Assembly (NCBI GenBank): GCA_015501605.1
Contig: JADNRZ010000017.1
Span: 310,001 to 374,000, forward strand
Direction: 5' to 3'
DNA length: 64,000 nucleotides
From: Panaeolus papilionaceus
Taxonomy: Eukaryota; Basidiomycota; Agaricomycetes; Agaricales
Position 1 is the first letter of the stretch. Every line of letters starts with the position of its first letter. The position numbers and the translations under genes are program-made. Shown here in pieces: positions 4,283 through 22,586 of this stretch. The notes below the pieces were generated by a model that was not told the DNA's origin, did no database searches, and worked only from the letters and a program-made list of their open reading frames with translations.

Positions 4283-5026
4283 ATGAGGCTCTCATTCGCC
4301 CTCATGTCATCTTTGACCATCCTCTCTGGTGCTTTGGCCTTAACAACCCCTGAGCAACAACCCATGCTCAACCAGGTGTCGCCAGCTGGACAAGTTCACA
4401 CTTACGAAGGCTGGAGCTACACGAATTGTGGTTTGTGAAAATTGCACTCTAACATGAATCTTATGCACACCTTTTCAACAGGTCTTGATACCGATCCTAT
4501 TCAATTTGAATCTATTAAACTCTCTCCAGATCCCCCAAAACCAGGACAGGACCTTACTGTCAAGGTGACAGGATCCACTAAGAAAAACATCAAGGTAAAT
4601 ATGATTAACTCAACATTTCCATTAGTCGTGTCTAACGGCTCAATAGGTTGGCGCTTATGCCGAAATTACCGTCAAGCTTGGTTTAATAAAAATCTTTAAA
4701 AAAGAGGTTGACCTGTGTGAAGAAGCGTAAGTTATTTGTACCCGAACATTACGTCTGGTATACAAACGCTTTTCACAGACGCAAAGCCAATGTCTCCATT
4801 CAATGTCCAATTGAACCTGGCAAATATACCATCGAACATACAGTTGCCATGCCCAAGGAGATTCCCCAAGGTTAGTCATTCCTTTCAGACCACTGATGGG
4901 TACTGATAGCACATCATAGCCAAATTTACTGTGGGGGTCCGAGCATACACGGTGGATCATGATGACCTCTTCTGCCTTGCTTTTATGGTTGACTTCATGA
5001 AGCGCCCTTTCTTTCAGAAGTTCTAG
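4283..5026 (+). CDS. Secreted ML-domain (NPC2/phosphatidylglycerol-phosphatidylinositol transfer-like) protein
   Basis: The protein is about 170 residues. The first 19 residues (MRLSFALMSSLTILSGALA) form a signal peptide. The rest follows the ML/NPC2 beta-sandwich pattern: YTNCG near the start of the mature domain, IQFESIKLSPDPPKPGQDL, VTGSTKKNIKVGAYAEITVK, VDLCEEARKANVSIQCPIEPGKY, and a C-terminal FCLAF. Four cysteines (TNC, DLC, IQC, FC) are consistent with two conserved disulfides. Introns lie after YTNC, after NIK, after EEA and after EIPQ. Fungal NPC2-like proteins bind sterols or phospholipids in the vacuole or secretory pathway; that role is inferred from the family. The stop lies only 20 bases before the terminus of the large transposon that begins at 5046, so the element may sit in this gene's 3' region. 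Confidence 0.88.
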
Positions 5027-5045: not shown

Positions 5046-5073
5046 CAGATGTCGCATAATTCGCACGCGCGTT
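5046..5073 (+). repeat. Left terminal inverted repeat of the 17 kb element
   Basis: It begins CAGATGTCGCA and continues through TTCGCACGC to CGTT. It matches the reverse complement of 22209-22236 at 25 of 28 positions, and the sequences diverge inward from there. Confidence 0.85.
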
Positions 5074-5230
5074 GTAACACTCGAATTGTTACATGCGTGA
5101 TGTGATAGTGTTGTCACATCACCATTTTGGTCGTAACGCAGTAACTGGTGCTGTAACATTTTCCAACAGAACAAGTGGTGTTACAATGATTGAGCTGTGT
5201 GACAACGGCGTTGGGGTGACATTACAATAT
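5071..5230. repeat. Left subterminal motif cluster (TTGTAAC/GTTACAATG)
   Basis: Copies or near-copies in both orientations lie near 5072 (TTGTAAC), 5087 (TTGTTACATG), 5132 (CGTAAC), 5151 (CTGTAACATT), 5180 (GTTACAATG) and 5220 (ATTACAAT). Similar clusters near the ends of CACTA-type elements bind transposase; that role is inferred here. Confidence 0.65.
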
Positions 5231-5368
5231 CAACCACACTTGCCACAGCCATCAACGATCTCAAGGTCTTCCCCATCATCCTACAAGTGTATAATTGCTG
5301 TCTGTACAACACATACTCTGTACATTGTACAATTATCGCTATTTATTCATTATCCTGTGAAAATAGCC

Positions 5369-8300
5369 ATGTCCAGCACGAAGCTCAAACAATCCAAACG
5401 TTCATTACCATCATCACAAGACTCTGACTCTCACCATAGTACAGAGAGCGATACTAGCAACCTCTTCGAATGCAAGCTCCAGTACTGTCACCGTGTCTTT
5501 AATTCCAAGAAGTCGCTCACTATACATGCACGGTCATGTGCAGAGAAGGAATCCAATAGGATTCGAGATCGTCTGCTGGAAGAGGAAGCAAGGATGAGGG
5601 ATCAGGTCAAGCTCACACATCTACCAGAAAGTATGTGTTCTTCATGTGTATCAGCTAAGCATCGACATGCAGCTAACAGCACTTACAGAACGAAAGGCCC
5701 CTTCAACAAGCAAGTGGGATGACCCCTCCTTGCAGGCCTCGACCAACAAAAGATCAGCTGTTGATCTTGAAAACCAACCCTCACTCTTCCCCTGTACGCC
5801 CTAACTCCTTAATGATTTGAACGTGCCAAATTGACATTAATTTTCTTTTATAAGTGGAACCTCGCTCTACAAATCCCAAGGTCCAACATGGTTCTCAAGC
5901 GCGCTCAAAGAGAGGTCTTGGTGGGAACGGTGGTGCACAGAATGAGAGGGCAGGCCAGCAAGCACAGGGTATGCAAATTTTTGCTAAGAATCACTGCATT
6001 GTTGTCTAACTAACTCTTGCCATTAGCTCAGCCTCCACATCCTGTCGAGGGGCAAAAGGATAGCTTTAAGACTGACTTCCACCCACATAGTCGCCGAAAA
6101 GCTACCTTCGAAGCTTTTGAGGCATTTGGCCAGAAGCAAAAGGAGCCTGATAATCAGCAACCGTCAAACCTCCCCACTTACATTACCAAATCAAACCCTT
6201 GGCTCCCTTTCAGGTCTCGTGCTGCCTTCGAGTTTGCTGAGCTCACACTCCATACCGCCCTCACTGATGGAGAAATCGATAAGCTCATCAAGATTGTCGA
6301 GAAACTTGTCAGTGAGAAGGATTCCTTTTCTGTTGTTGATTGCCAGGATCTACGCCAGACCTGGGTTGCAGCATCAGAGAAGCGCACACGGGTAGTACCT
6401 CGTCCTTTCGCAACATAGATATTATCATTATTTCTAATAATATATGTTTAGTTTGAGCGTGTAACGCTAGATATTTCGCTTGGACCCATTGAGCAGAAAG
6501 TGGATTTCTGGTACTGGGACCTCTGGAGTTGCATTACCGACATTGTCACTGATCCTCTTCTTGCCCCCCATTTTGTCTGGGACGCTTGCCAACATTCAAA
6601 ACATGATGGTGATAATTATGTTCAGTTTTTTGATGAACCCTGGACTGCTGATCGTTTCTGGGATTTTCAGGTATATTCATATGGTTTATCTCTATGATGT
6701 AAAGTATCGCTAACTAAGACTTACATACATTAGTCATTATTACCAGATTCTGCAGAAGCTAAACCCCTTGGTCTCATTTTATATGCAGACACAACCCTGC
6801 TCTCTTCCTTCGGTACTGAAAAGGGACATCCTGTCATTCTTCACTGCGCAAATTTACCATCTGAAATCCGTAACAGTGATGGTATTGGTGGGGGCATTGT
6901 CGTTGGATGGCTGCCAATGGTGTGTTCAGATGATATGCCATGCATGCAATATAATTTCTCACTCTTGTTCTATAGCTGGAGTCCATAGAAACATCTCGAA
7001 ACAAACCAGAACTTGCCAACTTCAAGAGGCTTGCTTGGCATGAATGCTTTAGGGTACTCCTTCAAAAACTCAGACAACCTTCGCAGCATGGCAAATACGT
7101 TCAATGTGGAGATGAAATACAACGGCAATTATTTCCATTCATTGTGATCCTCTGCTCTGACTATGAGGAACAGTGCGTCCTTTTGTTATGTTAAATCCAA
7201 TAATAATAAGCTGATTCCAATTATATTATAGGGCGGTAATGGCTCTCATACGCGGTCATTTGGGCCATTACCCATGCCCTGTCTGTCTTGTCCATACTGA
7301 TAGCCAAGGCGATATTGTCAAGGGACAATGGCCATATCGCGATGTCGAAAAAACCAAAGAGCTTGTCAAGGCTTATAGGCAGGCAAAATCTTCCACTGAC
7401 ATTATCGAAGCAGACAAGGCATTGCAAAGGCAAGGACTTCGAGGTATCAAGGTGTGTTCAATTTAACTTCTTGTGATACTTAGATTCTCGCATATTCAGG
7501 ACTTTGATTAGAATGCATTCTGGAATGTCAACTTTAGCGATCCATTTGCAGCACTTTCCTGGGATCGCATGCACAATTATGCCCTTGGATTAGGAGGAAA
7601 GCACATCTTGCCTCGGATCATCAAGCATCTCAGAGATCTCCCAGGACGACAACCAGCAGCTCTTGCTGATACTCAGTAAGTCAATGTCTTGTTTCGAATA
7701 TGCTTTATAGTTAATGCATATAATTTATGATAGGATTGACATGCTCCCTCGCTGGCAGAATCTTTATCACTTTTCAAAGGCATTAGATATCGACTTTTCT
7801 GATGCTCGAAAATTCGAGGATTTAATGAAGGTAAATTAAACTTTTGGCGCTTTTGATGATGCTATTTAAACTTAACTGATATAAACTTCTGTCTGCTTTT
7901 ACTTAGATCATTCTGTTTGTTACCCATAATATTATGTACACAGGAAATTCAACATATCTTGAGAAAAAAGGCATGCAGTTACTCCTTGTCCTTCGGTCAT
8001 ATCAATGGTTAGACTACCTGGCATCCTTGGATGTTCATACGGAGGGGACATTAAAGATGATCACTGGCGAGCTCAAAACATATGGAGAACGGTTAGATGT
8101 ATGTATTTTTGTTGTGATTAGACGACTATTGATTTAATGATTTACAGAAATATATCAAAATCACCAGCGAGAAAGACTGGAACTTCCCAAAAAATCACAT
8201 ACACCTGCACATGGTTCGCGACATTCAGCAGAAAGGTGTAACAAAGAACTATAACACCAAGTATAATGAAGCTATGCACGGTCGTCTGAAGGAGTCATAC

Positions 8301-9272
8301 CAGTTTCGAGGTCATTTTAGGGAGGTTGCCAACTATGTATGTTATAAGAACTTCCTATATTTTTCAACGCTAATATCTTATGTGGAAATGATAAAATCAT
8401 AGATTCTCAAAGCAGAAGAATTTATGGACGCTTCAGAATACATCCGTCGACTTATCAACGCAGCAGATGCAATTGCAGAGGAGAAGATTCGGATGGAGGA
8501 GGAAGATGCCAGCGAAAAGGGAAAAGAAAAAGAAAAAGAAGATGACAAATCTCAATCAAAGAAGCCATCCCAACAACAGCGCGCTCCAATTTCAATTGCC
8601 AACATATACATGGGAGCGTCTGAGAAGCCACTGTCAATAAATGATATCGAACAGAAGAGTCTGGCAATAGATCGATTCATGGCTAACTTCGGAGTAAATT
8701 TGCGAAAGTTTCTCCAAGGACATTCAGATTTCAAGAGCGTTGCATCATCATTGGATCAATCAACTAGGGTATATATTCTCATATATTTTCTTACAATTAT
8801 AGCTGATATATTCTTCTGTGTGTTCCAGATCACCGAATACCGATTCCTCAAGGTTTTCTATGAATGCAAGGTCACCTGGAGAAAAGAGACAGATTTTCTC
8901 CAGTGTAGCCCCGCATTTTTCAATCGGCCCCGTTACGATTCCATTATGTATAACACCGGAAATACACCAGGCTTTGGCCGTCTCAAATTCCTATTCGCAT
9001 TTACCATTGCTGATACAACCTACCCAGTGGCACTAATCTGGCGTTTTACTCTCCGTCCAAGAACAAGCAAATTTATTGAAGAGAAAGATAAATCACTTCA
9101 ATTTATCCGACTCCGACAATTGGAAACATTTGAATTCATTCCTGTTCGATCTATTATTCGGGGTGTTCTTCTATTTCCTGCTTTTGATATTGAGAGCGAC
9201 TATCTACTCTTTGATGTTCTTGATCAGGATATGGGACTTCGGGCGAAAGACCTCTATAACTCCTTCCAGTAG
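5369..9272 (+). CDS. Plavaka-type transposase
   Basis: A spliced gene starting at ATG 5369 with many short introns. Residues about 30-55 form a Cys/His finger (FECKLQYCHRVFNSKKSLTIH, then C). A basic linker follows, then the Plavaka core: NPWLPFRSRAAFEFAEL, VDFWYWDLWSCITDIVTDP, LGLILYADTTLLSSFGTEKG, WHECFRVLLQ, VILCSDYEEQAVMALIRG, YPCPVCLVHTDSQGD, NVNFSDPFAALSWDRMHNY and YNEAMHGRLKESYQFRGHF. Candidate catalytic acids are D in LYADTT, D in LCSDYE and E in YNEAMHG, in the order expected of a DDE transposase of the Plavaka/CMC group; they are assigned by eye. The C-terminus is a polar domain ending DLYNSFQ. Each exon joins in frame and I see no stop or frameshift, so the gene may be functional. 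It lies just inside the left terminal repeat. Confidence 0.85.
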
Positions 9273-9559
9273 GACGACACTGAAGGTATAAATTCACCTA
9301 TAATCTTCTGTAATGCTTGCCAACTACTCTTGCTTCTGCTAGGTTTTAAACACCACACCCCTCCTTCGCTTAGTTTGCTTACTCGACATCCATACACTTA
9401 CATTTCATTATCCTCTCCCCCACTCAATTTCCACCCCAACCTACTGTTTGGACTCCATATCGTCTGGTATGTGGTATTTAATTTGTCTGAGCTGGCATAA
9501 ATTGACAATGTGATCTGCCGTCATTTTCTTGTTTCTGTCTTATCGTCTAGGTCTACACC
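9273..9559. promoter_or_regulatory. Spacer between transposase and accessory ORF
   Basis: It is C/T-rich upstream of the accessory gene. A TCTAG acceptor-like site (9547-9550) lies 9 bases before the accessory ATG, so a 5' untranslated intron is possible. Confidence 0.4.
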
Positions 9560-11976
9560 ATGCCAGGAGCATCATCAAGACCACACAAGCGACCAGTTCA
9601 ACATTATGACTCTGATGAGAAGAGCGCATCATCTTCTGAACCAGAGTCTGATTATGGCATCCAACCTACTGGTGCCCAACGTAACAAAGGCCACCCATCT
9701 TCAACCGATCCAACCGATCAAGTCAATGAACTTCAACGAGTAAGTTTTATTCTAATTTTTGTGATACATTTTTGTGATATTTTTATGCTATAGCTCCTCA
9801 AGGAAAGTGAACTGCGCCTCCAGCAGGTCGAGAAAACCCAGAAAGAACTTGCTGCTAAAGTAGCAGAGCAATCAAGAGACGTCCAAACTGAGAGTCGAAG
9901 TCGAAACCGGCAGAAGCGAGAGGCCAAGAAGTCATCAACCAGGACTAAGCCCAACTCTTCCAGTTCTTCGAAACACAGGATGGCACAACAACAGCATGCA
10001 CGGCCTGCTTCATCATCATCTCATTCTCCATCCCCTCCACCTCCTCCATCCTGTCGTACCACCAGAATGAAACATTCTCCAAATGCCGATTCTCTTATCA
10101 CTCCAAAAATCGAAGATCAAATTCGCCTCTATGCTCGAAAATTCTTTGTCATGAACGAAATTACAATCTGCTCAGATGCCTTCGCACCACTACCCAGTAA
10201 CCCAGATGAAATCATAGAGGTGGATGCCATTGATCGCTATCTGGACGAAGAGAGTGCACTCCAGGGCTTAATCAGCGAGCTACATGCTGTCGTTCCCAAA
10301 GAGCTCCATGAGCTGATGGAAAAATACTCAGGATTTGCAGACGAGGTGCGCTTTTCAGACTTACCTATTTACCACCTAGTATCCATGCTAATGTGATTTA
10401 CAATTAGTTTCTACATGCTCATGGCAACATTCGTCGGTCAATAATTCACCAGCTTCGTGCAGAAACAGCTGGGGGGATTTTTGAAAAACCACAAAGGTTT
10501 TACCATTATGACTATGACTGGCAAAACAATACAGAGTTCGCCATGTTACTCCGACCATTCCCAAAAGATATGCCTAGGTTCAGAAAGACTGGTGTACTTC
10601 TCTATCCTCCTATTCTTTTCAAGGAGAAAAAGCGCAACATGAAGGATTTCTTATTTGCGCCAGAGGTGCCATGGGTATGTAATATATTATATATCTAATC
10701 GTTTATCATTAAAACTGGTTTCTCCTCTAGGTTCTAAGGACGATTCTTTTTGGTCCCAGCTCACTCACTAAAAAGAAACCGTCGAAGCATTCAAATGCAT
10801 ACAAGTGGAGTTTGAAAGGTGTTACTCCAGGCGCCATTGCCCTTGCAGCAGTCCTTGTACGCCCTTTTAACCTTGCCAACAATAATCATCAGAATTGCTA
10901 ACTTTATGTTAGACCATCTTTCTACACTCAACTGATCGACATTTTGAGGCTGTTGGTGGTATTTCTGGCTTTCAGTATGCGCAAATGCATTCTCGTTTCA
11001 AGCAGCTCATCAACCAAGGCCTGGATAAAAATCCTGATCATTTTAAAAAACTTGTAAAGTTTTTCAACGATCAGGTTTTCATTTATGGTTCGGCATCCTC
11101 ACTAAAGGCTGGTAACGATCTGTTGGATGACAGTGATGGTGATGTTGACTTCTCCGACGGCATTGATGAAGCGATCAATGCCATCGGAGAAGACAATCAG
11201 GATCAGGATGAGGACAATGATGATGATGATGGTGGCTGGAGTCGGGGTGATCTCAGCATCATAAAGCATGGAGATAATGATGAGGCTATTGATGCCAATG
11301 AATGTAGCGAGTCTGATGCAGAAGCGCCGGCTGACACCCCAATGGAGGATGCCAATGCCAATCTCGTAAGCTTAATTATACTCTATTCTTCATTATTTTC
11401 AATTACTAATATAAATACTTAGGATATTCTAACGCCAGACAAGATTACACCAATTACTCTCTCTTACCATCCACCTGAGATCCTGACCAACAATTCTACA
11501 ACCCATCATTTCTCTCTTTCTCCTGCCATGACTGGCATGTCAGGCTCCAGTGAATCGCCATCTCCTGCCTATCAACTATCTCTTGAATCTAGCTATAGCC
11601 AACCAAAGCATCAGGTCCATTGGACAGCATCAACTTGGTCATCGACTTCACCTTCCACTCCTTCTAGCCAGGATCCTTTGTTGTCTATCCCATCACACCC
11701 ATCACAAGTGACAGGCAGCAGGGACAAGGTAAAAGGAAAGGCCAAGGCCACAGCATCAACAAAAGCACTGAAGGCCCAGAGAAAGCTGCAACTTGAAGAC
11801 AAAGCATCTTCTATGGACGATCATTCTGTGGTGCCAGAGCTTGGAACTCAACAGCAGAGTAAGTGAGATGATAAAACTCAATGACATTATTATCTGATAT
11901 TTTATCACCAGATGCCCCTTCAGGCCGTCGAGGAAGATCGGCTGCAGGCACATCTTCCAAACCACCAGCAGCATGA
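9560..11976 (+). CDS. Transposon accessory protein of unknown function (DUF6532-like core, acidic tail)
   Basis: A spliced gene on the same strand as the transposase. The N-terminus is Ser-rich with a short Leu/Gln coiled coil (LLKESELRLQQVEKTQKEL), then a basic region and a proline run. The core reads KIEDQIRLYARKFFVMNEIT, then DRYLDEESALQGLISELHAVVPKE, FLHAHGNIRRSIIHQLRAETA, TGVLLYPPILFKE, and VTPGAIALAAVLTIFLHSTD followed by FKQLINQGLDKNPDHFKKLVKFFNDQVF. This resembles the uncharacterised DUF6532-type proteins common in agaric genomes and around their transposons; that assignment is from memory. It is followed by an Asp/Glu-rich stretch (about 11130-11260) and a Ser/Pro/Lys tail. Exons join in frame to TGA at 11974. 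A role in transposition or DNA binding is only a guess from position. Confidence 0.7.
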
Positions 11977-12396
11977 TTTTAGACATGGTGTTATCAAGAC
12001 AACTTTGTAGCGTATGACAAATGAACCAACCATAATTAATTTTTGTTAATTTTTGTGCATAAATTCTTTTGGTGCGATGAATGAACAGATTATGAGTCGT
12101 TGAGTTTTATTATCCTGGGCAAGAGCGAAAAGCGAGGACGGCTAAATCCCCTCGCTTATTGCTCTCTCCCCACCTAACAAAACCAGTTGAATCGTGAGCA
12201 AGGGAAGGATGAAAAGGGAGGCGGGTGGGTAAAACCAAAAATTGACAAATCTCAAATACCACCACGTGGGAGGGCAAAATAATTACATTCCTTTTGGAAC
12301 TGCGACTAGGAATAGTGACTACGCACAGAAGTATCTGTGGCGAGATTGACAGCTGTATTTCTCGGGATAGATACATAATACCAGATACAATCTGAT

Positions 12397-12800
12397 CTAC
12401 GAAGCGGAAATCATGAACGAGGAGACAGTAACACTACCTCCAAGTGACGAAGTAGCATAGTTAAGAATACCAAACCTATAGCCCATGAAGAACTGCCACT
12501 CCGTGTTCAACGAGAACGCACCACCAAGCCTTGTGAATGTGCTGCCATTCGTGCTATAACTGAACAGCCCCTGCTTTGAGCCCGTACTCCCGGGCCTGAT
12601 ATCCGCCGCAACCCTCAACCAGATGCGGCCTGTAGCAGGGATCGAAGTTGTTGTCGGCACCACAGTAGTTCCACCAGACCCAGGAATACACTAGAAATAG
12701 TTTAAGTAAATCGATTGGCGTAGATCACAAGTAGCAGAACACGGACCTGGGAGTAATAGGGGTTGGAATAGGTGCAATGGGACCAAAATGGGACCAGCAT
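12397..12800 (-). pseudogene. Fragment of a CBM1 / GH43-like secreted carbohydrate enzyme
   Basis: The minus-strand exon 12690-12397 begins CIPGSGGTTVVPTTTS, the end of a fungal cellulose-binding module (CBM1) plus a Thr/Ser linker. It continues RIWLRVAADIRPGS, GLFSYSTNGSTFTRLGGAFS and EWQFFMGYRFGILNYATSS, then GGSVTVSSF, and ends at TAG 12397. The second half matches the C-terminal beta-sandwich typical of fungal GH43 enzymes. A preceding mini-exon (12800-12747) supplies CTYSNPYYSQ, the CBM1 aromatic motif, across an intron with GTCCGT/CTAG borders. Upstream of this the frame is lost and no catalytic five-bladed domain is found in the window, so it is an incomplete, probably captured gene piece. 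The plus-strand neighbours belong to the transposon. Confidence 0.65.
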
Positions 12801-14860
12801 CCATGACCAGATATGGCGTGTGCACGACAAAGTCACTGTGTCAGCACTCCCACGATAGAAACGCCGTTACACAGACGAATAGCAATGCTGGCGAGGCCTA
12901 TGTGACCAGTGAAAAATGAGTCGCCCATGAAGCTGACACGTGGATGTCAGGAGGGATGGTTGACACTGAGGAGTGTAGCTGACATTGATGAGGGTGGAGA
13001 TGCAAGGGAGATGGCAGCACCCCCGACAGTAATCGTACTCAGTTATCATAACTCTGTAGTAATTACAACTCCCACTTCTATCTGACCCCGACCCTAAACC
13101 CCGTCTGCCAATCCACCAACCTGCAACAACGACGCTTTCCGGACCGTCAGTGACACCTAGAGCCAACAAAAGTCAATGAAAGGCGGGATAAGATGACAAT
13201 GTCCCTCTTACAAAGGGAGTGAGGTCCACCCGTGGATCCAGGCTTCTGGTAGCGGCCAAAGTGACCGCGACTCCACCCCCGCCATCACAGTTGCCTCTCC
13301 CAACGGCAACATCACCCTTTCAACTCCAACTGGAGAGGTGGTAGGGGTATTCAACCTCGAAGCCGATAACGCATGTCCATTCGCTATGGCATCGTCGTAT
13401 GTACGGAGAAGGCGATGAAATGCAGAGTAGAGTTCCATGACATGGTGGGTGTTTTTCGCTGTTGGAGGGGATGATATCGTGACCACGTCTTGTCGTGCTG
13501 GAGAGTCGTGATACGGTTTCTGGGTGTCTGAACAAGCTTAGGGTAATTATTGGACGTGAATTGGGGACATGTAGAGGGAAAGATATTGCTGGTATTCAGG
13601 GAAGGGAGTGACACCTTGACATGGTATGATTGCATGCTGGGCCAAAGGATCAACCCCTTCGTTTTTCATAGCCACCATCATTTAGACTTACTATACGCCT
13701 AGATTGTGTTGGTGCCATTTATCACATAAGAATATATGGAGGAGAAAGGGTGAAACAGACATTACAGCCGGAAATCTTTAGGGTAGGAATGAGTCGATAA
13801 AATAGATTGAAGAGCCGTGACAGGTGTGCTCACCAGTAATATCAGAATCCATATCCACCATATCGTTCTCCCTAAACCTGTCATAACCAAAGGCTAAGCG
13901 CTAGATGCTGATGGGTGGTTTCACATACACCCACTTGAAATTTCTTTCTAGGAGGTCAATCTCCTCTCTGTTGTTTCCCAATACGAGACCGACACTTCCT
14001 ATCCCAACTCTGAATGCAACATCTCGTCCCAGCACAGAATAAAGAACAGGTCTCTGTTGAACGCATAATCCTCTTCTCCTTCTTCACTACCTATCCCAGA
14101 ACTCTTGATTTGAGCGACGGCAACTCCTACGCTCGCTCGCTATAGACTCGGACCTGCTTATAGAGGGTGTAAGTGACAAGAACCGTTCTTTACGTTCGTA
14201 CTCACCAATGTCGTAGACGTTTCCTTCCCCGTCTCCTCTCTCCTCTCTCCTTCATTTCTTCCATCCCGTTCTCCCGATTTCCCTTTCCACTCATGGCAAC
14301 AACCTCCCCCTCCACACCCACTTATCACCCGCACCAACACGGCCAAACTGCCCCTTCCCCCGTAATTTCAGCTATTTGCGATATCGCGTGGTGACAGGTA
14401 AGGATGCATCGTTTGAGGTGTTTTGGTGAGGGTTATGGCTGAGGTTCAGGGATGTGCAGTGGTACCAGACGTAGGTGGCCAGGACAGCAAGGTGCAGGTA
14501 ATGGTGCGTTTGGAACATGAACGTGAGGGGATGGGGAATGGGGGATGAGGATATGGGATTGGAAAGGTGCGGTGAAAGCAGAGGCAGAGGTCTTGGGTTT
14601 TCTCATCCTGGCACTGGTGTCATCTGAATCCCTCTCCTTCACGTCCTCTTTGCCTCTTTTCTACCACGTCTGATGTCACCACGACGACCGGTACGGCTGA
14701 GGGCAGGACTTGATGAGGTGGAGGAGCTGGAGCTGGGGCGGTGATCACTTAGAGTGTTGCTGAGCGGGTGTGGACACAGGGAGAGAGGAGATTGACTAAT
14801 TGCAGGAGAACTTGGGGGTGATTGACAAGAGTAGTAGTGGTTGACGAAACAGCCATAGAC
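12801..14860. other. Transposon interior with unassigned sequence debris
   Basis: No complete gene is supported. An open plus-strand stretch near 13214-13408 reads HPWIQASGSGQ and later GNITLSTPTGEVVGVFNLEA and looks protein-like, but has no start or end I can justify. Several Ser/Pro-rich short frames on the minus strand (14433-14905) are low-complexity. Confidence 0.45.
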
Positions 14861-16237
14861 GCTAGATTCATATATCAGGAGTGTAGATGTACAGTCCTCA
14901 CTCATGTATCAGACCTGTAGTTCTACAGTGGACTGTACATGTACAGTCCCCTGTAAAATAACAGTAGGGGATGATTTCCGGGGGTGGGGGATGGGTAGGG
15001 GGATGGGTAGGGGGATGGGTAGGGGTATATAGGGGGTGAAATAGGTGATATTCCGGGGGTAGGAGGATGGGTAGGGGGTTAGGGATAGGGGGGATGGATG
15101 GGGGGATACCAGATAGGGGCTGGTGGCTTATCTGGCTGGGTGGGGGTAGGGGAAATGTTGTCGGATAGATATGATATGGGTATGGGGTCGTAGAGAAAAA
15201 AATCAGGATCCCGGAATGGGTATTTTCGGGGTGGGGGGATCAGTGGTTGGCGAGCAATTAAGGAAATACACTCTCAGAGCCAGCGATAAATCAAAATAAA
15301 TCGAAAAAATAATATAAATCGCAAATAGCGCGCTCAATTCTGCTCCGATTGGGCTGAAATTTTGAACGCAGCCTCCCACATATGATCCCTATCGACCCTT
15401 AAAAAATGTTTTTTTACATGGGTCACTTGAAAAGCCCCTATCTTTGGCCCAAACAGTATCCTGCTCCATATTGCACCGCTCTGGGCACTATTTTGGGCGA
15501 TCTATATATCATTAGAAAGCTATTAACAGCCTCTATAAGATCCCACAATCCGATCTACCAAATTGTACCAGCAACCCAGCAGATCAGGTTCGCTTTTTCT
15601 GCTTTTTCAGCCCCTATTCCCCCTACTACAATTATTTCCTCAATATTGCTTCGCTTTTGGCACCATTTGGGGGGATATATATATCATTAGAAAGGTATAC
15701 ACTATATCTATCCATTCATGTGGTCTGATCTGCCAAATATGGCCACAGAAGCAGCAGATCTGCTCTGGTTATTGTGCATTGATTAAATGAGCCCCTATTT
15801 AAAAATCAAATCTTCGTCCTGATCAGGAATATTAGTGTGATGTCATTGATCCCATTTAATCTCATCAATCCTCATTAATTAGCTTCGCTTTTTTGGGAAA
15901 TTGGCATCACTGATCTGCTTCCAGGCACTAATGACACCACATCAATTAATTAATCCTCCCCCACAAATATTGCAGCATTAATTGCACCGCTTTTTAGCTA
16001 TTTTTTATTACACATATATATATCACCAGAAAGCTACAAATGTCTACTTTCAGGATCTGAAAACAGATCATAAATGTTGTGCTTGTGGAGGGAGCAATTG
16101 CATTTCGCATTTTGGGTACTAGAGCGTGGGAACACCTCTTGATCCTCCTTCTCCTCCTCCCCCCTCCGCTTTTTTGGCTTCATTCCTCCACTCTCCCTGC
16201 AGCTACTGAGCTGAAACTTGGTACATCTCTTTATATA
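14861..16237 (+). repeat. Left arm of the long inverted repeat
   Basis: In order it has a tip with nested small palindromes (TGTACAGT, ACTGTACATGTACAGT at about 14930-14949), a G-rich block (14979-15145) and a tract with three diverged repeats ending in a TATATATATCA-YYAGAAAG-like motif, near 15500, 15680 and 16020. No gene is supported. Confidence 0.85.
14979..15145 (+). repeat. G-rich GGATGGGTAGGG-type tract, G-quadruplex-prone
   Basis: Many runs of three to six G are spaced by AT, TA or AT-GGG units, with repeated GATGGGTAGG units. The mirror tract on the right arm (18504-18670) is C-rich on the plus strand. It resembles a minisatellite. It is not a canonical TTAGGG telomere array. Confidence 0.75.
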
Positions 16238-17411
16238 CATCATTAAATGGATCTCACCAGCCTAATAGTCAAAATAAACACTATGTTGCATTCTATCAGC
16301 ATAATAATACATATTTCCTTAAATTCACAAAAAAGCGCACCAAATTTTAATGCTTCTGTATGATGTATGCCAGTAAATGATATTTATATATCAATACTGC
16401 ATACTGGGGATCTGAAATCCAATGGAAGTGCATTATATATCTCTATATTTGCATGTAGAATTAGCAAAATGGACATTTTTGTTAGTCTGAACTTCTATGG
16501 CTTTTTCCATTAGTATTTCCCTCCATATATACATCTCTGGCATTGTCTAAGCGTTGTCTAAGTGTTTATATACACCATATGTAATGTTCCACACAGCCCA
16601 CCACCTGATATATTGAGCCACATTTGTAGTATTGGCCATATATTTATGGAGGGCTTAAAATACACTATTCTGCACTTTACTATGCCATAGCAGTCCTATT
16701 TGTATTTTATAACTAGCAGGAAACGAATATATTAACTCTAGTTACACGATGCAAAAAACCCCAAGTGATTTGGACAAGTGTAGCCATCTGAATGTTCAAA
16801 ATGGTGTGCAACCATCATAGTTGATGCTCGGTGTTTCAAGAATACACACAATCACCACTACATCAAACTCCTTCTGACCGCTTTTTTGAGGCTCTACCCT
16901 TCCACAATCATCCAAATCACTTCAAACCTTTTGTAAACATTACATATCATGTCTCCTGATCCATCTGTATGTTCTGATTAAATTATTTTGTTGCTGATCC
17001 TTTGTCAGAAGCTTATCAGTGGAAATTTGAACGATTTTGAGAACTGCTCAGAATCCTTTGGGGGTGGGCTACTTTTGAAGGCACAATTGAAGCGTCCTCA
17101 GAACAGTTTGGTGCATGTTGGAGCGGTCAATATTCATGAAGATATTCACAAATTACTATTCTGCATAACCTGAGGTATCATTTAGTGTTTTCTATTCTGC
17201 TGCTTGAACTTTTGAAGCGGTTGAGTGGCAAATTCAATGCTTTTACATGTTATGAGTAATATACATAAGGGCTTTCAGCAGTAGAGGAGCCAAAAGGATG
17301 TATTATAGGGTATATATGGTGCAAATATGGTATTTTGATATGTAATTGGTGAATGGAATGAGTGGAACCTCTTCAATTGATATATAAGCGGAGATATAGC
17401 TATATGTATGT
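16238..17411. other. AT-rich spacer between the inverted-repeat arms
   Basis: The strand is AT-rich with short frames only. One 61-codon frame at 16988-17173 has no family resemblance. Neither DDE-transposase nor reverse-transcriptase motifs are seen. Confidence 0.6.
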
Positions 17412-18788
17412 TATATAAAGAGATGTACCAAGTTTCAGCTCAGTAGCTGCAGGGAGAGTGGAGGAATGAAGCCAAAAAAGCGGAGGGGGGAGGAGGAGAA
17501 GGAGGATCAAGAGGTGTTCCCACGCTCTAGTACCCAAAATGCGAAATGCAATTGCTCCCTCCACAAGCACAACATTTATGATCTGTTTTCAGATCCTGAA
17601 AGTAGACATTTGTAGCTTTCTGGTGATATATATATGTGTAATAAAAAATAGCTAAAAAGCGGTGCAATTAATGCTGCAATATTTGTGGGGGAGGATTAAT
17701 TAATTGATGTGGTGTCATTAGTGCCTGGAAGCAGATCAGTGATGCCAATTTCCCAAAAAAGCGAAGCTAATTAATGAGGATTGATGAGATTAAATGGGAT
17801 CAATGACATCACACTAATATTCCTGATCAGGACGAAGATTTGATTTTTAAATAGGGGCTCATTTAATCAATGCACAATAACCAGAGCAGATCTGCTGCTT
17901 CTGTGGCCATATTTGGCAGATCAGACCACATGAATGGATAGATATAGTGTATACCTTTCTAATGATATATATATCCCCCCAAATGGTGCCAAAAGCGAAG
18001 CAATATTGAGGAAATAATTGTAGTAGGGGGAATAGGGGCTGAAAAAGCAGAAAAAGCGAACCTGATCTGCTGGGTTGCTGGTACAATTTGGTAGATCGGA
18101 TTGTGGGATCTTATAGAGGCTGTTAATAGCTTTCTAATGATATATAGATCGCCCAAAATAGTGCCCAGAGCGGTGCAATATGGAGCAGGATACTGTTTGG
18201 GCCAAAGATAGGGGCTTTTCAAGTGACCCATGTAAAAAAACATTTTTTAAGGGTCGATAGGGATCATATGTGGGAGGCTGCGTTCAAAATTTCAGCCCAA
18301 TCGGAGCAGAATTGAGCGCGCTATTTGCGATTTATATTATTTTTTCGATTTATTTTGATTTATCGCTGGCTCTGAGAGTGTATTTCCTTAATTGCTCGCC
18401 AACCACTGATCCCCCCACCCCGAAAATACCCATTCCGGGATCCTGATTTTTTTCTCTACGACCCCATACCCATATCATATCTATCCGACAACATTTCCCC
18501 TACCCCCACCCAGCCAGATAAGCCACCAGCCCCTATCTGGTATCCCCCCATCCATCCCCCCTATCCCTAACCCCCTACCCATCCTCCTACCCCCGGAATA
18601 TCACCTATTTCACCCCCTATATACCCCTACCCATCCCCCTACCCATCCCCCTACCCATCCCCCACCCCCGGAAATCATCCCCTACTGTTATTTTACAGGG
18701 GACTGTACATGTACAGTCCACTGTAGAACTACAGGTCTGATACATGAGTGAGGACTGTACATCTACACTCCTGATATATGAATCTAGC
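17412..18788 (-). repeat. Right arm of the long inverted repeat
   Basis: Reverse complement of the left arm. The arms stop matching at TTATATA on the inner side and at the shared GCTAG tip on the outer side. Near-identity implies recent formation or ongoing gene conversion. Confidence 0.85.
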
Positions 18789-19953
18789 CTCAAAGGGTGG
18801 ACGAAATCGCAGAAGGTAATGGTGATGAGTGGTGTACGATAATGGGTGTGGTCAAAGCTGGAGATGGAGCAGGAGTTGAAGCAGACGCTGGGGTGGGGAT
18901 TTACTACACAGATCGTGTCCACCGGACTACTTGCTATACTCCACGAAGAGCTTAGTTGGACGGCGAAATTTGTGACTCCGCTCCAGAAGATGCGGGGGTG
19001 AGTGGAAATGAGCGTGTTCCTGAAACTGGAGCTAAAGCACTGGGCTCCCTAAAAGCAGATGTTGACAAGGTCGTCGTCGTAAATGATTCGTCGCTGCAAG
19101 ACGAAAAGGACGGGGGACTGGGGATGTCATTCTTTATCCTTCTTGAAGAATTAGCTAGGGGTCGGTGAAGACTCAACCCCACAACCATGACAGCCCCAAC
19201 TCCAACTACTGGTCTTGCTCTAGCTCCAGCCGTTTTGAGTGAGGGTGCATTGTCTGTGGGCAGGGTCGAGGGTGATATGGTCGGAAAAGGAAAGGCAAAG
19301 GAAGAGGAGAGGGAGGAGATCGTTGAGAAGGACAAAGGGAAGGACAAAGGGAAGGGAAGCATCATGCTGCAGCTCCTGGTGATGATGTCATTGAGTTTGC
19401 TCACATCGTGTCTTTCGCCCTGGACATGCACAGTCAATACTCTATATGTTATAGAAACCATTAAATTGAGACATACCCAATGGAGCCACATAAGTTGTTG
19501 GTGAGCTGTTGGTGACTGAAGCACCATCAGGATTTTCAGAAACCCACATATGGTCTTCGACGTGTAAGGTGTACAGGCAATCCGAAGGACGCAAGCGGTT
19601 GGTAGTGAGAATGCGAGGAACACCATCAGGGTTTCTAGAAACCCACAATATGGTCATCGATGTGTACAGGCAACCCGAAGGAGCCACGCGAGCCATCGGA
19701 AGAGACAGTGGAAAGGCAAGCGAAGGGCAAAAGGGCAAGAAGTGAGAGGGTGCAGACAGCTAAGGTAACAATATTTCCTATACTTATATTCCGATGACCG
19801 TGACCTGACTAATTGTGATGCTAGTCAATCGGGATGGGAACATGTCATGCGGTTAAACTTATTCCTGTTTCTCGCCTCCACCATCCCGGCTGGCCCACCA
19901 CCATATTAGCTCCAAATTCTTCATCTTCTTCAACGTTATCCCCTCATTTCAAC
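18789..19953. other. Transposon interior between inverted repeat and dioxygenase gene
   Basis: A plus-strand frame (18956-19168, GEICDSAPEDAG onward) and a Lys/Glu-rich low-complexity frame (19187-19390) are open but not assignable. The overlapping 224-codon minus-strand frame is probably their shadow. The last 100 bases hold the presumed promoter of the dioxygenase gene. Confidence 0.45.
19520..19695. repeat. Two-copy diverged tandem repeat, about 100 bp unit
   Basis: Unit 1 near 19520 and unit 2 near 19621 share CACCATCAGG, AGAAACCCACA, ATATGGTC, GTGTACAGGCAA and CCGAAGGA. On the minus strand the units encode repeated CLYT and WVS-NPDG-type segments in one open frame. No function can be assigned. 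Confidence 0.6.
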
Positions 19954-21768
19954 ATGACTCTCACATATTCAAGTTTATCAAAGGTGAGTCTTGAATAAAG
20001 TTTTACTTATTGTTACATTTAAACCTTTCGAAATGTACAGGACAAATTGCATGACTATCATGCCACTCGTTATGACCCTAATCCTCGACAGGCTCAGTTA
20101 TCCAATCACCATGCCCATCGTTACCCCCAACATCGCTCTTTCTCCGCAATTTTACCCTCCAACCGACACCAACCCTCCCAGTCAGATCGCGTGCAACGAG
20201 AAACCAGAAAACGAAATGAACGCAAGCGCTGCAAAGAAAGACGGGATGCAGAGGAGCAAAGGCGCGTTGAACGCCTTGAGGAAGAGAGAAGGTTGGCAGA
20301 GGAACAGGAGATTCAGCGACGCGTTGTTGAGAAAATAAAGGCTGTAAGTCTCTGTTTTCAAGCTGTCCTCTAACGAATATACCCATCTCTTTGTGATTAG
20401 ATGCAGCGTGTTATCTGGGGTACTGACACCCCAGTCCACACTCATGAACTTGAATACAACCAACACCATCTTGATGGTGTTCTTGCACTGGAACACGCAA
20501 CTGGAAAGCCCCTTGATCCCAAGGATCCCAATTTTTGTGCAATTGGTACCAAATGGATTTCCGAGGAGGGCATTCATCTTGGAATGTGCAACAACGAAGT
20601 TATCTTCGTTGCTCGTATAACGCAAGTGCATTTATTATATTTTACATTCGTTAACTGATGGATTACATTATCTGGCTCAACACAGGCCTGTGGCTACCAT
20701 GTCGGCAGCCAGTCGAGCAGAGTGTGAGAATGCCATTAACATCATTATGGGATGGACAACTTGTGTCAACATTGTGAAGAACAATGCCTCCCAGGTATGT
20801 GACTTTCTTATCTTTTTGAGAACATAGCGCCAAAACAACATGTTTGAGCTTCACCCAATACTTGGCTATTCACCTTCAACGACGCCCTGTGCTCGACAGG
20901 GAAATATGTTTGCAATGGGGTGGCATACCTCATTTGAAAAAGGGGCAGAGATCGCAACCTATGCTGCTAGTCGTCACCAGGCAGCTATTGAAATGTGAGT
21001 AAACGTAATCATTCTTTGTAGCTCTCAGTCTCAGAGTTGTTGTTAAACATCATCGCAGATATCGTGATCTTTATCCCAAACTCCCCCAGGTAGCCAATGC
21101 CTATCGCACTAGACTCATGTCACTTTATCCACTGGCACTGAAGGAAATGACAGAGGCGGTCCAAAAGTGAGTGACGACTTGATACTTGTCAATATATACT
21201 CTGCACTGAGACAATCAATTAACTTGTACTTTAGAGATGGAATTCCAAATTTCTCAGATGCAGAGCTCAGTGACGATATTTTCCAAGGCTCGTATGCTAA
21301 TGCCTTGGCCATCACCCGCGATAACTTCGCCAACTTCCAACACCGTGACAATGATGAAACACCTCATACTTATGGATGGTGGTGGCCTGCTCTGCTTAGC
21401 ATGGATGGACGATACCATGTTGACTGGAATAGCCACAGCAAGACTGAAGGCGGAGGCTTTAGTTTTGGTGAATATGGTATAGGCGTTGACTTTCAAAGGT
21501 ATGATTCCTATTTTTCACTTGGTTCATTGCTCTATTTTGAATTGTAAATCATTCTGATTATAGGTGCAATGGATGTCTTGTCGAGATCCAATGGCGAGGA
21601 AAAACAGACATTCATGGCACTGCAAAAAGCATTAGTGAAGGTAACTTTACGCGGTTTGGTACATCCATTCAAATTACCGCCAAGGGTGCTGGTGCCGCAC
21701 GTCGTTTTTGGGCTAATGGAGGGAATACTAGCCGATCGATAACTTATAGCCAACGTGCTGGCACATAA
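19954..21768 (+). CDS. Tet/JBP-like 2-oxoglutarate/Fe(II) dioxygenase, transposon-borne
   Basis: Eight exons (19954-19983, 20041-20343, 20401-20621, 20686-20794, 20828-20994, 21059-21166, 21235-21498, 21564-21768) join in phase to 468 residues with TAA at 21766. The N-terminus (about residues 55-110) is a basic Arg/Glu-rich helix (RETRKRNERKRCKERRD). The C-terminal domain shows the double-stranded beta-helix signature: His349-x-Asp351 in FANFQHRDNDE, then HTYGWWWPALLSMDGRYHVD, GGGFSFGEYGIGVDF, distal His418 in WRGKTDIHGTAS, and Arg431 in FTRFG as the likely 2-oxoglutarate ligand. This matches the basidiomycete Tet-like oxygenase family known to expand alongside DNA transposons, whose members oxidise 5-methylcytosine; activity here is inferred. 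The donor of intron 3 (20622) is GC rather than GT. All catalytic residues are present, so the gene looks functional. Confidence 0.82.
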
Positions 21769-22208
21769 AGCTATGTGGGGCTGCTCAAGCTTCATAATAC
21801 ATATTAGATTTCATTTAGAGTGCCATGGGTTACAATGAATCATCGTTTACTTCCAAAATTACACGCCTCATAAGCAAAATGAATGATAACATGACTCAAA
21901 TGGGCTTGTAACGCCGATGTAATGTGCTGCTCTATTTTTTAAAGGGAACCCTGATTAGAACACATTGTAACGTCACACACTCATTATAATACATTTTTAT
22001 ATTTCAAATATGTTGAAATATTGAGGCTAATATTACATTGGTGTGACAATAAATGATATGCTGTTCTGATAATGCTGTAATTATTGGAGCAAATTGTAAC
22101 GCTAGCGGCGTCCGTTACAATGATTTTACCAATTCGTTACAATGAGTCGTAACGGGGCCGATTTGTGCTGGTTGTTCCGGGCTGCCGAAACACGGCACAA
22201 CGCATTGT
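21769..22208. repeat. Right subterminal region with TTGTAAC/GTTACAATG motifs
   Basis: Copies lie near 21906 (TTGTAAC), 21963 (CATTGTAAC), 22093 (ATTGTAAC), 22113 (GTTACAATG), 22135 (GTTACAATG), 22150 (CGTAAC) and 22203 (CATTGTAAC). Their density and spacing mirror the left end. No gene is present. Confidence 0.65.
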
Positions 22209-22236
22209 AACGGGCGTGCGAAATTTGCGACATCTG
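22209..22236 (-). repeat. Right terminal inverted repeat of the 17 kb element
   Basis: It ends GCGACATCTG at 22236. Its reverse complement matches the left terminus at 25 of 28 positions. Confidence 0.85.
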
Positions 22237-22586
22237 ACTTTCACAGGACATCTGCCATGATTTTATGAGATGAAGGAATTCCTGGGAGCGCTCATACCAT
22301 CGCAGTCATACTACCCGGCAGTCTGATCTTCCTATCTGATATCATTTCCCTTACACCTTGACCATGTAACACATGTAAAATAAACTGCTTGGTACCAGTA
22401 TGTTCAGATAAGCGTTCACTTTCGCAGACGGGGACTCAGCCAGTGGCAGCCATGGGGAAGCCCAAAAGGACATTAAGATTTTGCATTCATAGCCGCAGGC
22501 TTCACTCATTGTTGGGAATCGAATCATTATGTGACCCCCCAATAATGATACTGACATATATAAGCCTGGAGTGGGGCAAAGGATCT
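22237..22586. other. Flank outside the right transposon end
   Basis: About 350 bases with short frames only and no family resemblance. It leads directly into the protease fragment. Confidence 0.4.

Follow-up and report, generated by a model that had tools for sequence, protein, structure and literature searches.

Introduction

Full-length Plavaka transposons that carry a gene for a TET/JBP-type dioxygenase (TET+ elements) are known from Agaricus bisporus and Gymnopus confluens, all of them belonging to PlavakaB (Kojima 2025, PMC12730594). The same work gives TGT..ACA termini and 2-bp target duplications for PlavakaA and CATCA..TGATG termini for PlavakaB, places the Plavaka enzymes in a PE type marked by the motif HxE, and already proposes escape from methylation silencing as the benefit to TET+ elements. 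CcTET, a characterised mushroom TET/JBP enzyme, acts on 5-methylcytosine (5mC) according to that source (PMC12730594). An earlier note on the DNA described below had given the published link of Tet/JBP enzymes with basidiomycete transposons as one with KDZ-type elements only; TET+ Plavaka elements are, however, already in print (PMC12730594).

Here we describe a locus in Panaeolus papilionaceus (assembly GCA_015501605.1, contig JADNRZ010000017.1, positions 310,001-374,000, forward strand), a stretch of 64,000 nt that we call the window and to whose first letter all positions without a prefix refer. Within it, a 17.2-kb unit spanning 5046-22236 holds a Plavaka transposase gene, a DUF6698 gene and a Tet-like dioxygenase gene between inverted ends.

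Results

The arms of the terminal inverted repeat, 5046-5073 on the forward strand and 22209-22236 on the reverse, are 28 nt long and complementary at 25 of 28 positions (89%), as the earlier note had reported. Genome-wide, the 22-nt end occurred at 8 places with up to 3 mismatches (0 for a reversed control) and a 17-nt core at 47 places with up to 2 mismatches (18 for the control); the core TGTCGCA(A/T)A(A/T)TTCGCAC was found without mismatch at 12 places, two of which are the ends of this element. Because the outer flanks of the core places diverge right before TGT, we take TGT..ACA as the family terminus, which begins with TGTCGCA at 5050 on the left and lies at 22232 on the right. CAGATG, where the earlier note had put the end, was rejected as a family terminus, since the perfect-core places diverge 4 nt further in, at the TGTCGCA common to other elements. 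It is possibly a 4-nt extension specific to the 17-kb element, in which CAGA/TCTG just outside the core supplies 4 further nucleotides that are symmetric at both ends. Subterminal motif clusters had also been claimed, and these were confirmed: GTAAC/GTTAC occurs six times in the first 400 nt (5046-5445) and seven times in the last (21837-22236), where the window averages 0.52 per 400 nt. When a 400-nt frame was slid over the 64 kb, 13 of 1272 positions contained at least six such motifs, and all 13 lay at the two ends of the element. At the right end, a second copy of the octamer GACATCTG stands in the flank, 10 nt outward of the first (window 22226-22257). On the left, an ML-domain gene ends at 5026, just outside the element.

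Within the 17 kb there were no inner ends with 3 or fewer mismatches; the two best candidates had 4 mismatches each, about chance level by a rough estimate, and were rejected. The 17-kb copy shows no target-site duplication, its flanks reading ..CACAGA and TCTGAC.., with GA to the left and TC to the right of TGT..ACA; duplications of 1-4 bp, sought by eye in several registers, gave nothing convincing (a single A under CAGATG). A DNA search that skipped very common words found no second copy of the left or right end region in the host genome. We consider the 17 kb likely to be one element, as the earlier note had it: both genes lie between matching ends, and no inner end at up to 3 mismatches separates them, but with neither a target duplication nor a second copy found, its status as one element is unproven. 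The search for other copies that the note had proposed, in order to ask whether the dioxygenase is always included, thus returned no second copy for comparison.

Short elements, 248-290 bp long, account for several of the core places. In a test of 24 loci, two of them the ends of the 17-kb element, a partner end at such a distance, with at most 5 mismatches, was present at 13, of which 6 were flanked by a 2-bp target duplication against 1 in 16 expected by chance (p 7e-5), although L052 and L053, both among the 13, are not independent, their flanks being alike at 289 of 300 positions. At L044 an alternative partner at 591 bp had fewer mismatches and no duplication; the 290-bp unit there is confirmed by other copies. 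The 290-bp family has 9 matches in the genome, and its copies at C2:1695707-1695996, C13:623844-624133 and C4:554042-554331 (two identical, the third with 1 difference) each have a 2-bp duplication. As these copies differ by 0-1 nt and each has its duplication, a transposase acting on TGT..ACA ends has been active recently. The first 24 nt of the 290-bp copies equal the right end of the 17-kb element, and the transposase that moved the short elements may be the one encoded by the 17-kb element. When the 17-kb element's own ends were compared with the short elements past the core, no clear left-right pairing emerged.

Between the ends the genes run in the order transposase, DUF6698 gene, dioxygenase, with one gene close to each end. 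The transposase gene (5369..9272, forward strand), which starts 319 nt from the left terminus at 5050, has 14 exons, introns that are all GT-AG and a product of 1039 aa without inner stop; this product matches PF18759 at 154 bits (cut-off 26.3), and an independent NCBI model, BJ165DRAFT_1531244 (1040 aa as listed), is 100% identical to it over 100% of its length. It begins with a weak C2H2 finger, and a CPVC and a plausible D, D, E can be picked out by eye; the published Plavaka motifs are C(2)C and H(3-4)H between the second D and the last E. PF18759 matches 112 stretches of the host genome. The closest relative of the transposase, at C24:450310-451980, is 52-85% identical exon by exon (39% in one overlapping row), and weaker relatives lie on C2, C3, C5 and at C24:138 kb (among 57 rows); by inspection, no core match was listed within 25 kb of the relatives on C24, C2, C3 and C5. 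The adjacent DUF6698 gene (9560..11976, forward strand) has 7 exons in our model, in which one intron is just 29 nt. As Plavaka and DUF6698 domains share one protein in two other species (P0122 of Suillus lakei and P0125 of Candolleomyces efflorescens), DUF6698 is probably native to Plavaka.

A 3950-bp repeat (14850..18799) lies between the DUF6698 gene and the dioxygenase, 2.9 kb from the former and 1.15 kb from the latter. It has perfect 1388-nt inverted arms and belongs to a large family: at least 54 stretches matched when 40 of the 239 candidates were scored, and the whole 2000-nt query matched at 88-98% in 10 places elsewhere. The repeat is a later guest in the 17 kb. Its observed/expected (o/e) CpG ratio is 0.38, and no clear target duplication was seen by eye. 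Apart from this repeat, the middle has a GC content of 0.49 against 0.43 in the transposase part and contains a C-terminal exon fragment of a GH43-type glycoside hydrolase (12397..12690, reverse strand; PF17851 at 24.0 bits with a cut-off of 22.7, PDB 3zxk at E 6e-17). The host DNA in the middle was either captured by the element or separates two broken elements; capture is favoured because there are no good inner ends and no inner motif clusters, while the second reading keeps some weight because a target duplication is missing at the 17-kb copy.

The dioxygenase gene (19954..21768, forward strand) has 8 exons and encodes an uninterrupted 468-aa Tet-like 2OG-Fe(II) dioxygenase in which HxD...H is kept and which PF20515 matches at 131 bits (cut-off 27); its stop codon is 464 nt from the right family terminus. 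Intron 4 is either 33 or 105 nt, in frame both ways, one intron starts with GC, and the NCBI annotation splits the gene into two models (BJ165DRAFT_1496354 and _1496361). The earlier note had called both the dioxygenase and the transposase intact-looking, and the uninterrupted 8-exon model and the transposase free of inner stops agree with it, as do the profile matches that it had suggested seeking among Tet-like oxygenase and Plavaka models (PF20515 at 131 bits, PF18759 at 154 bits). H349, D351 and H418 are invariant in a 5-row alignment, as are their counterparts in 8 of 8 rows of a second, in which one row is half of this gene and the other seven are homologues from Crepidotus, Roridomyces, Amanita (two), Pholiota, Ephemerocybe and one metagenome. 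The gene is the sole PF20515 match in the host genome.

The enzyme reads HRD and not the HxE of the PE type. One PDB search returned no solved-structure relative at E<=1 and no CcTET match, a second search for solved TET relatives returned five unrelated chains (best E 0.16), and PF12851 did not match the protein at E<=1. By ungapped count only, the positions of CcTET Gly331 and Asp337 read Glu and Gly, and by the same count the Asp337 position is Gly in 8 of 8 alignment rows. CcTET requires Asp337 for 5mC according to PMC12730594, and because this position is Gly by ungapped count the substrate of the Panaeolus enzyme is uncertain. Fold models of the enzyme had pLDDT values of 34.0 and 35.6, too low for judging the double-stranded beta-helix expected of the PF20515 superfamily.

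Elsewhere in the host genome, PF12851 (Tet_JBP) matched at 6 places, one of them over the cut-off; four have a KDZ match at a distance of about 3 kb. The matches at C56:2219885-2220382 and C11:229196-229438 have no KDZ match nearby and Plavaka matches 9-11 kb off (C56:2229172, C11:217405); these two loci are possible further Plavaka-TET pairs.

CpG content was compared across Plavaka copies. In the 17-kb element CpG o/e is 0.62 over the transposase and DUF6698 part and 0.79 over the dioxygenase and right end, with 0.79-0.88 in the flanks. The 3432-nt part of the closest TET-less relative (L078, C24:450049-453480) has a CpG o/e of 0.04, the lowest of 85 loci examined, the next being 0.43. Over a 1658-nt alignment, all 43 CpGs of the 17-kb element are lost in this relative, 26 having become TG, 8 CA and 9 something else; C to T accounts for 27 of 43 cytosines in CpG vs 55 of 327 elsewhere (p 8e-10), with a weaker contrast for G to A (11/43 vs 44/293). 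In this single relative the loss looks like decay of methylated CpG, judged from the substitution pattern, and the copy is perhaps simply old and long silenced. Five stretches of the host genome match C5-methyltransferases. Thirty other Plavaka stretches, not all from separate loci and none with a PF20515 gene, average 0.70 (range 0.19-1.21), so that a PF20515 enzyme is not needed for CpG retention, and the idea of TET as a general CpG protector is unsupported across Plavaka copies.

Discussion

The reading that we prefer, with a probability of roughly 0.6, is that the locus is a single-copy, probably autonomous Plavaka element with PlavakaA-like ends, encoding a transposase, its DUF6698 partner and a Tet-like dioxygenase, and containing in addition a captured host fragment and a later nested repeat, with the dioxygenase opposing methylation. 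Drawing on what is known of the family and on the recent movement of the short elements, the transposase would act on the GTAAC-rich ends and cut and paste the whole unit. The dioxygenase, by its homology and given the CpG contrast with the relative on C24, may oxidise methylated bases of the element, whether 5mC or another, and such oxidation would oppose the methylation that seems to erode its family, so that the element would stay transcribed and be spared C-to-T decay. Anti-silencing is, as far as sequence can suggest, the likeliest role of the enzyme. The earlier note had also offered oxidation as a means of steering excision, for which nothing in these data speaks. More tentatively, and with less than even confidence, we suggest that a Plavaka lineage other than PlavakaB independently captured a class of Tet-like enzyme unreported on mushroom transposons, and that this enzyme would keep CpG methylation, and the C-to-T decay that stripped the relative on C24 of every aligned CpG, away from the element and perhaps also from the short elements that have its ends.

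Much of the case turns on whether the two ends belong together. If two broken Plavaka-type elements adjoin here, the left one (transposase and DUF6698 gene) without its right end and the right one reduced to the dioxygenase and a right end, the missing target duplication at the outer flanks and the host-like middle, with its GH43 fragment and its GC of 0.49 vs 0.43, would follow, and since the core end occurs without mismatch at 12 places, a matching pair is no proof of one insertion. Yet neither an inner end with 3 or fewer mismatches nor an inner motif cluster was seen; the 4 nt CAGA/TCTG just outside the core match at both ends; and the dioxygenase would even then sit 464 nt inside a Plavaka-type end. 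We therefore think it unlikely, though it deserves to be weighed. That the dioxygenase is an ordinary host gene which by chance lies beside a Plavaka element or end is far less probable still: other Agaricales do have homologues (Crepidotus, Roridomyces, Amanita, Pholiota, Ephemerocybe), but the gene stops just 464 nt from an intact end with subterminal motifs, has no other PF20515 match in the genome for company, and is of a kind already known as transposon genes (PMC12730594); the ML-domain gene sits outside the ends.

One element may also be conceded and the function disputed, in that the dioxygenase may make another base modification, or serve the transposition reaction, and not counter methylation. 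The Gly at the CcTET Asp337 position, by ungapped count, points that way, as does a CpG retention across Plavaka copies that is not tied to PF20515. Against it, the CpG-directed decay of the closest TET-less relative is the very pressure that an anti-methylation enzyme would answer, and the mushroom TET/JBP enzymes characterised so far act on 5mC (CcTET, PMC12730594); on balance we hold another function to be improbable, about as much so as a pair of broken elements. Returning to the single element with an enzyme opposing methylation, its interest is twofold. If the unit is one element, neither the kind of Plavaka ends nor the class of enzyme has been the same in every capture of a Tet-like gene by Plavaka, and the view of demethylating enzymes as a recurrent transposon tool is strengthened. 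The locus also offers a natural test within one genome, which combines an apparently intact TET+ copy, a CpG-stripped TET-less relative, recently moved short elements and a single PF20515 gene.

Among known systems, the PU-type TET enzymes on rust transposons are perhaps of the same broad class as the Panaeolus enzyme, and PF20515 presumably covers many rust proteins. In Kojima 2025, PU-type enzymes occur in Pucciniomycetes only and not on Plavaka, and homologue searches with the Panaeolus enzyme returned no rust protein. Kyakuja and Zisupton elements with AG-type TET are likewise mushroom transposons with an HxD dioxygenase; they differ in having a KDZ transposase and enzymes near CcTET, whereas the Panaeolus enzyme has no CcTET or PF12851 match. 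With PlavakaA the element has TGT..ACA ends in common, and its same-end short elements share the 2-bp duplications; no PlavakaA with TET is reported in Kojima 2025, and the likeness is one of ends. We call the element just PlavakaA-like because its own copy has no 2-bp duplication, though 6 of 13 short elements do.

The TET+ Plavaka elements of Agaricus bisporus and Gymnopus confluens likewise hold a transposase and a TET/JBP-type gene in one inverted-repeat pair, and likewise come from Agaricales. They have the CATCA..TGATG termini of PlavakaB, which are absent at the ends of the Panaeolus element, and Kojima 2025 lists Plavaka under the PE type with HxE, in contrast to its TGT..ACA and HxD. 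In the literature searched, outside which most subscription papers fall, we met with no TET+ element that has PlavakaA ends and with no paper naming PF20515. A Plavaka element with a TET gene is thus known already, and it is the combination of PlavakaA-like ends with an HxD enzyme, which we did not find in print, that seems new.
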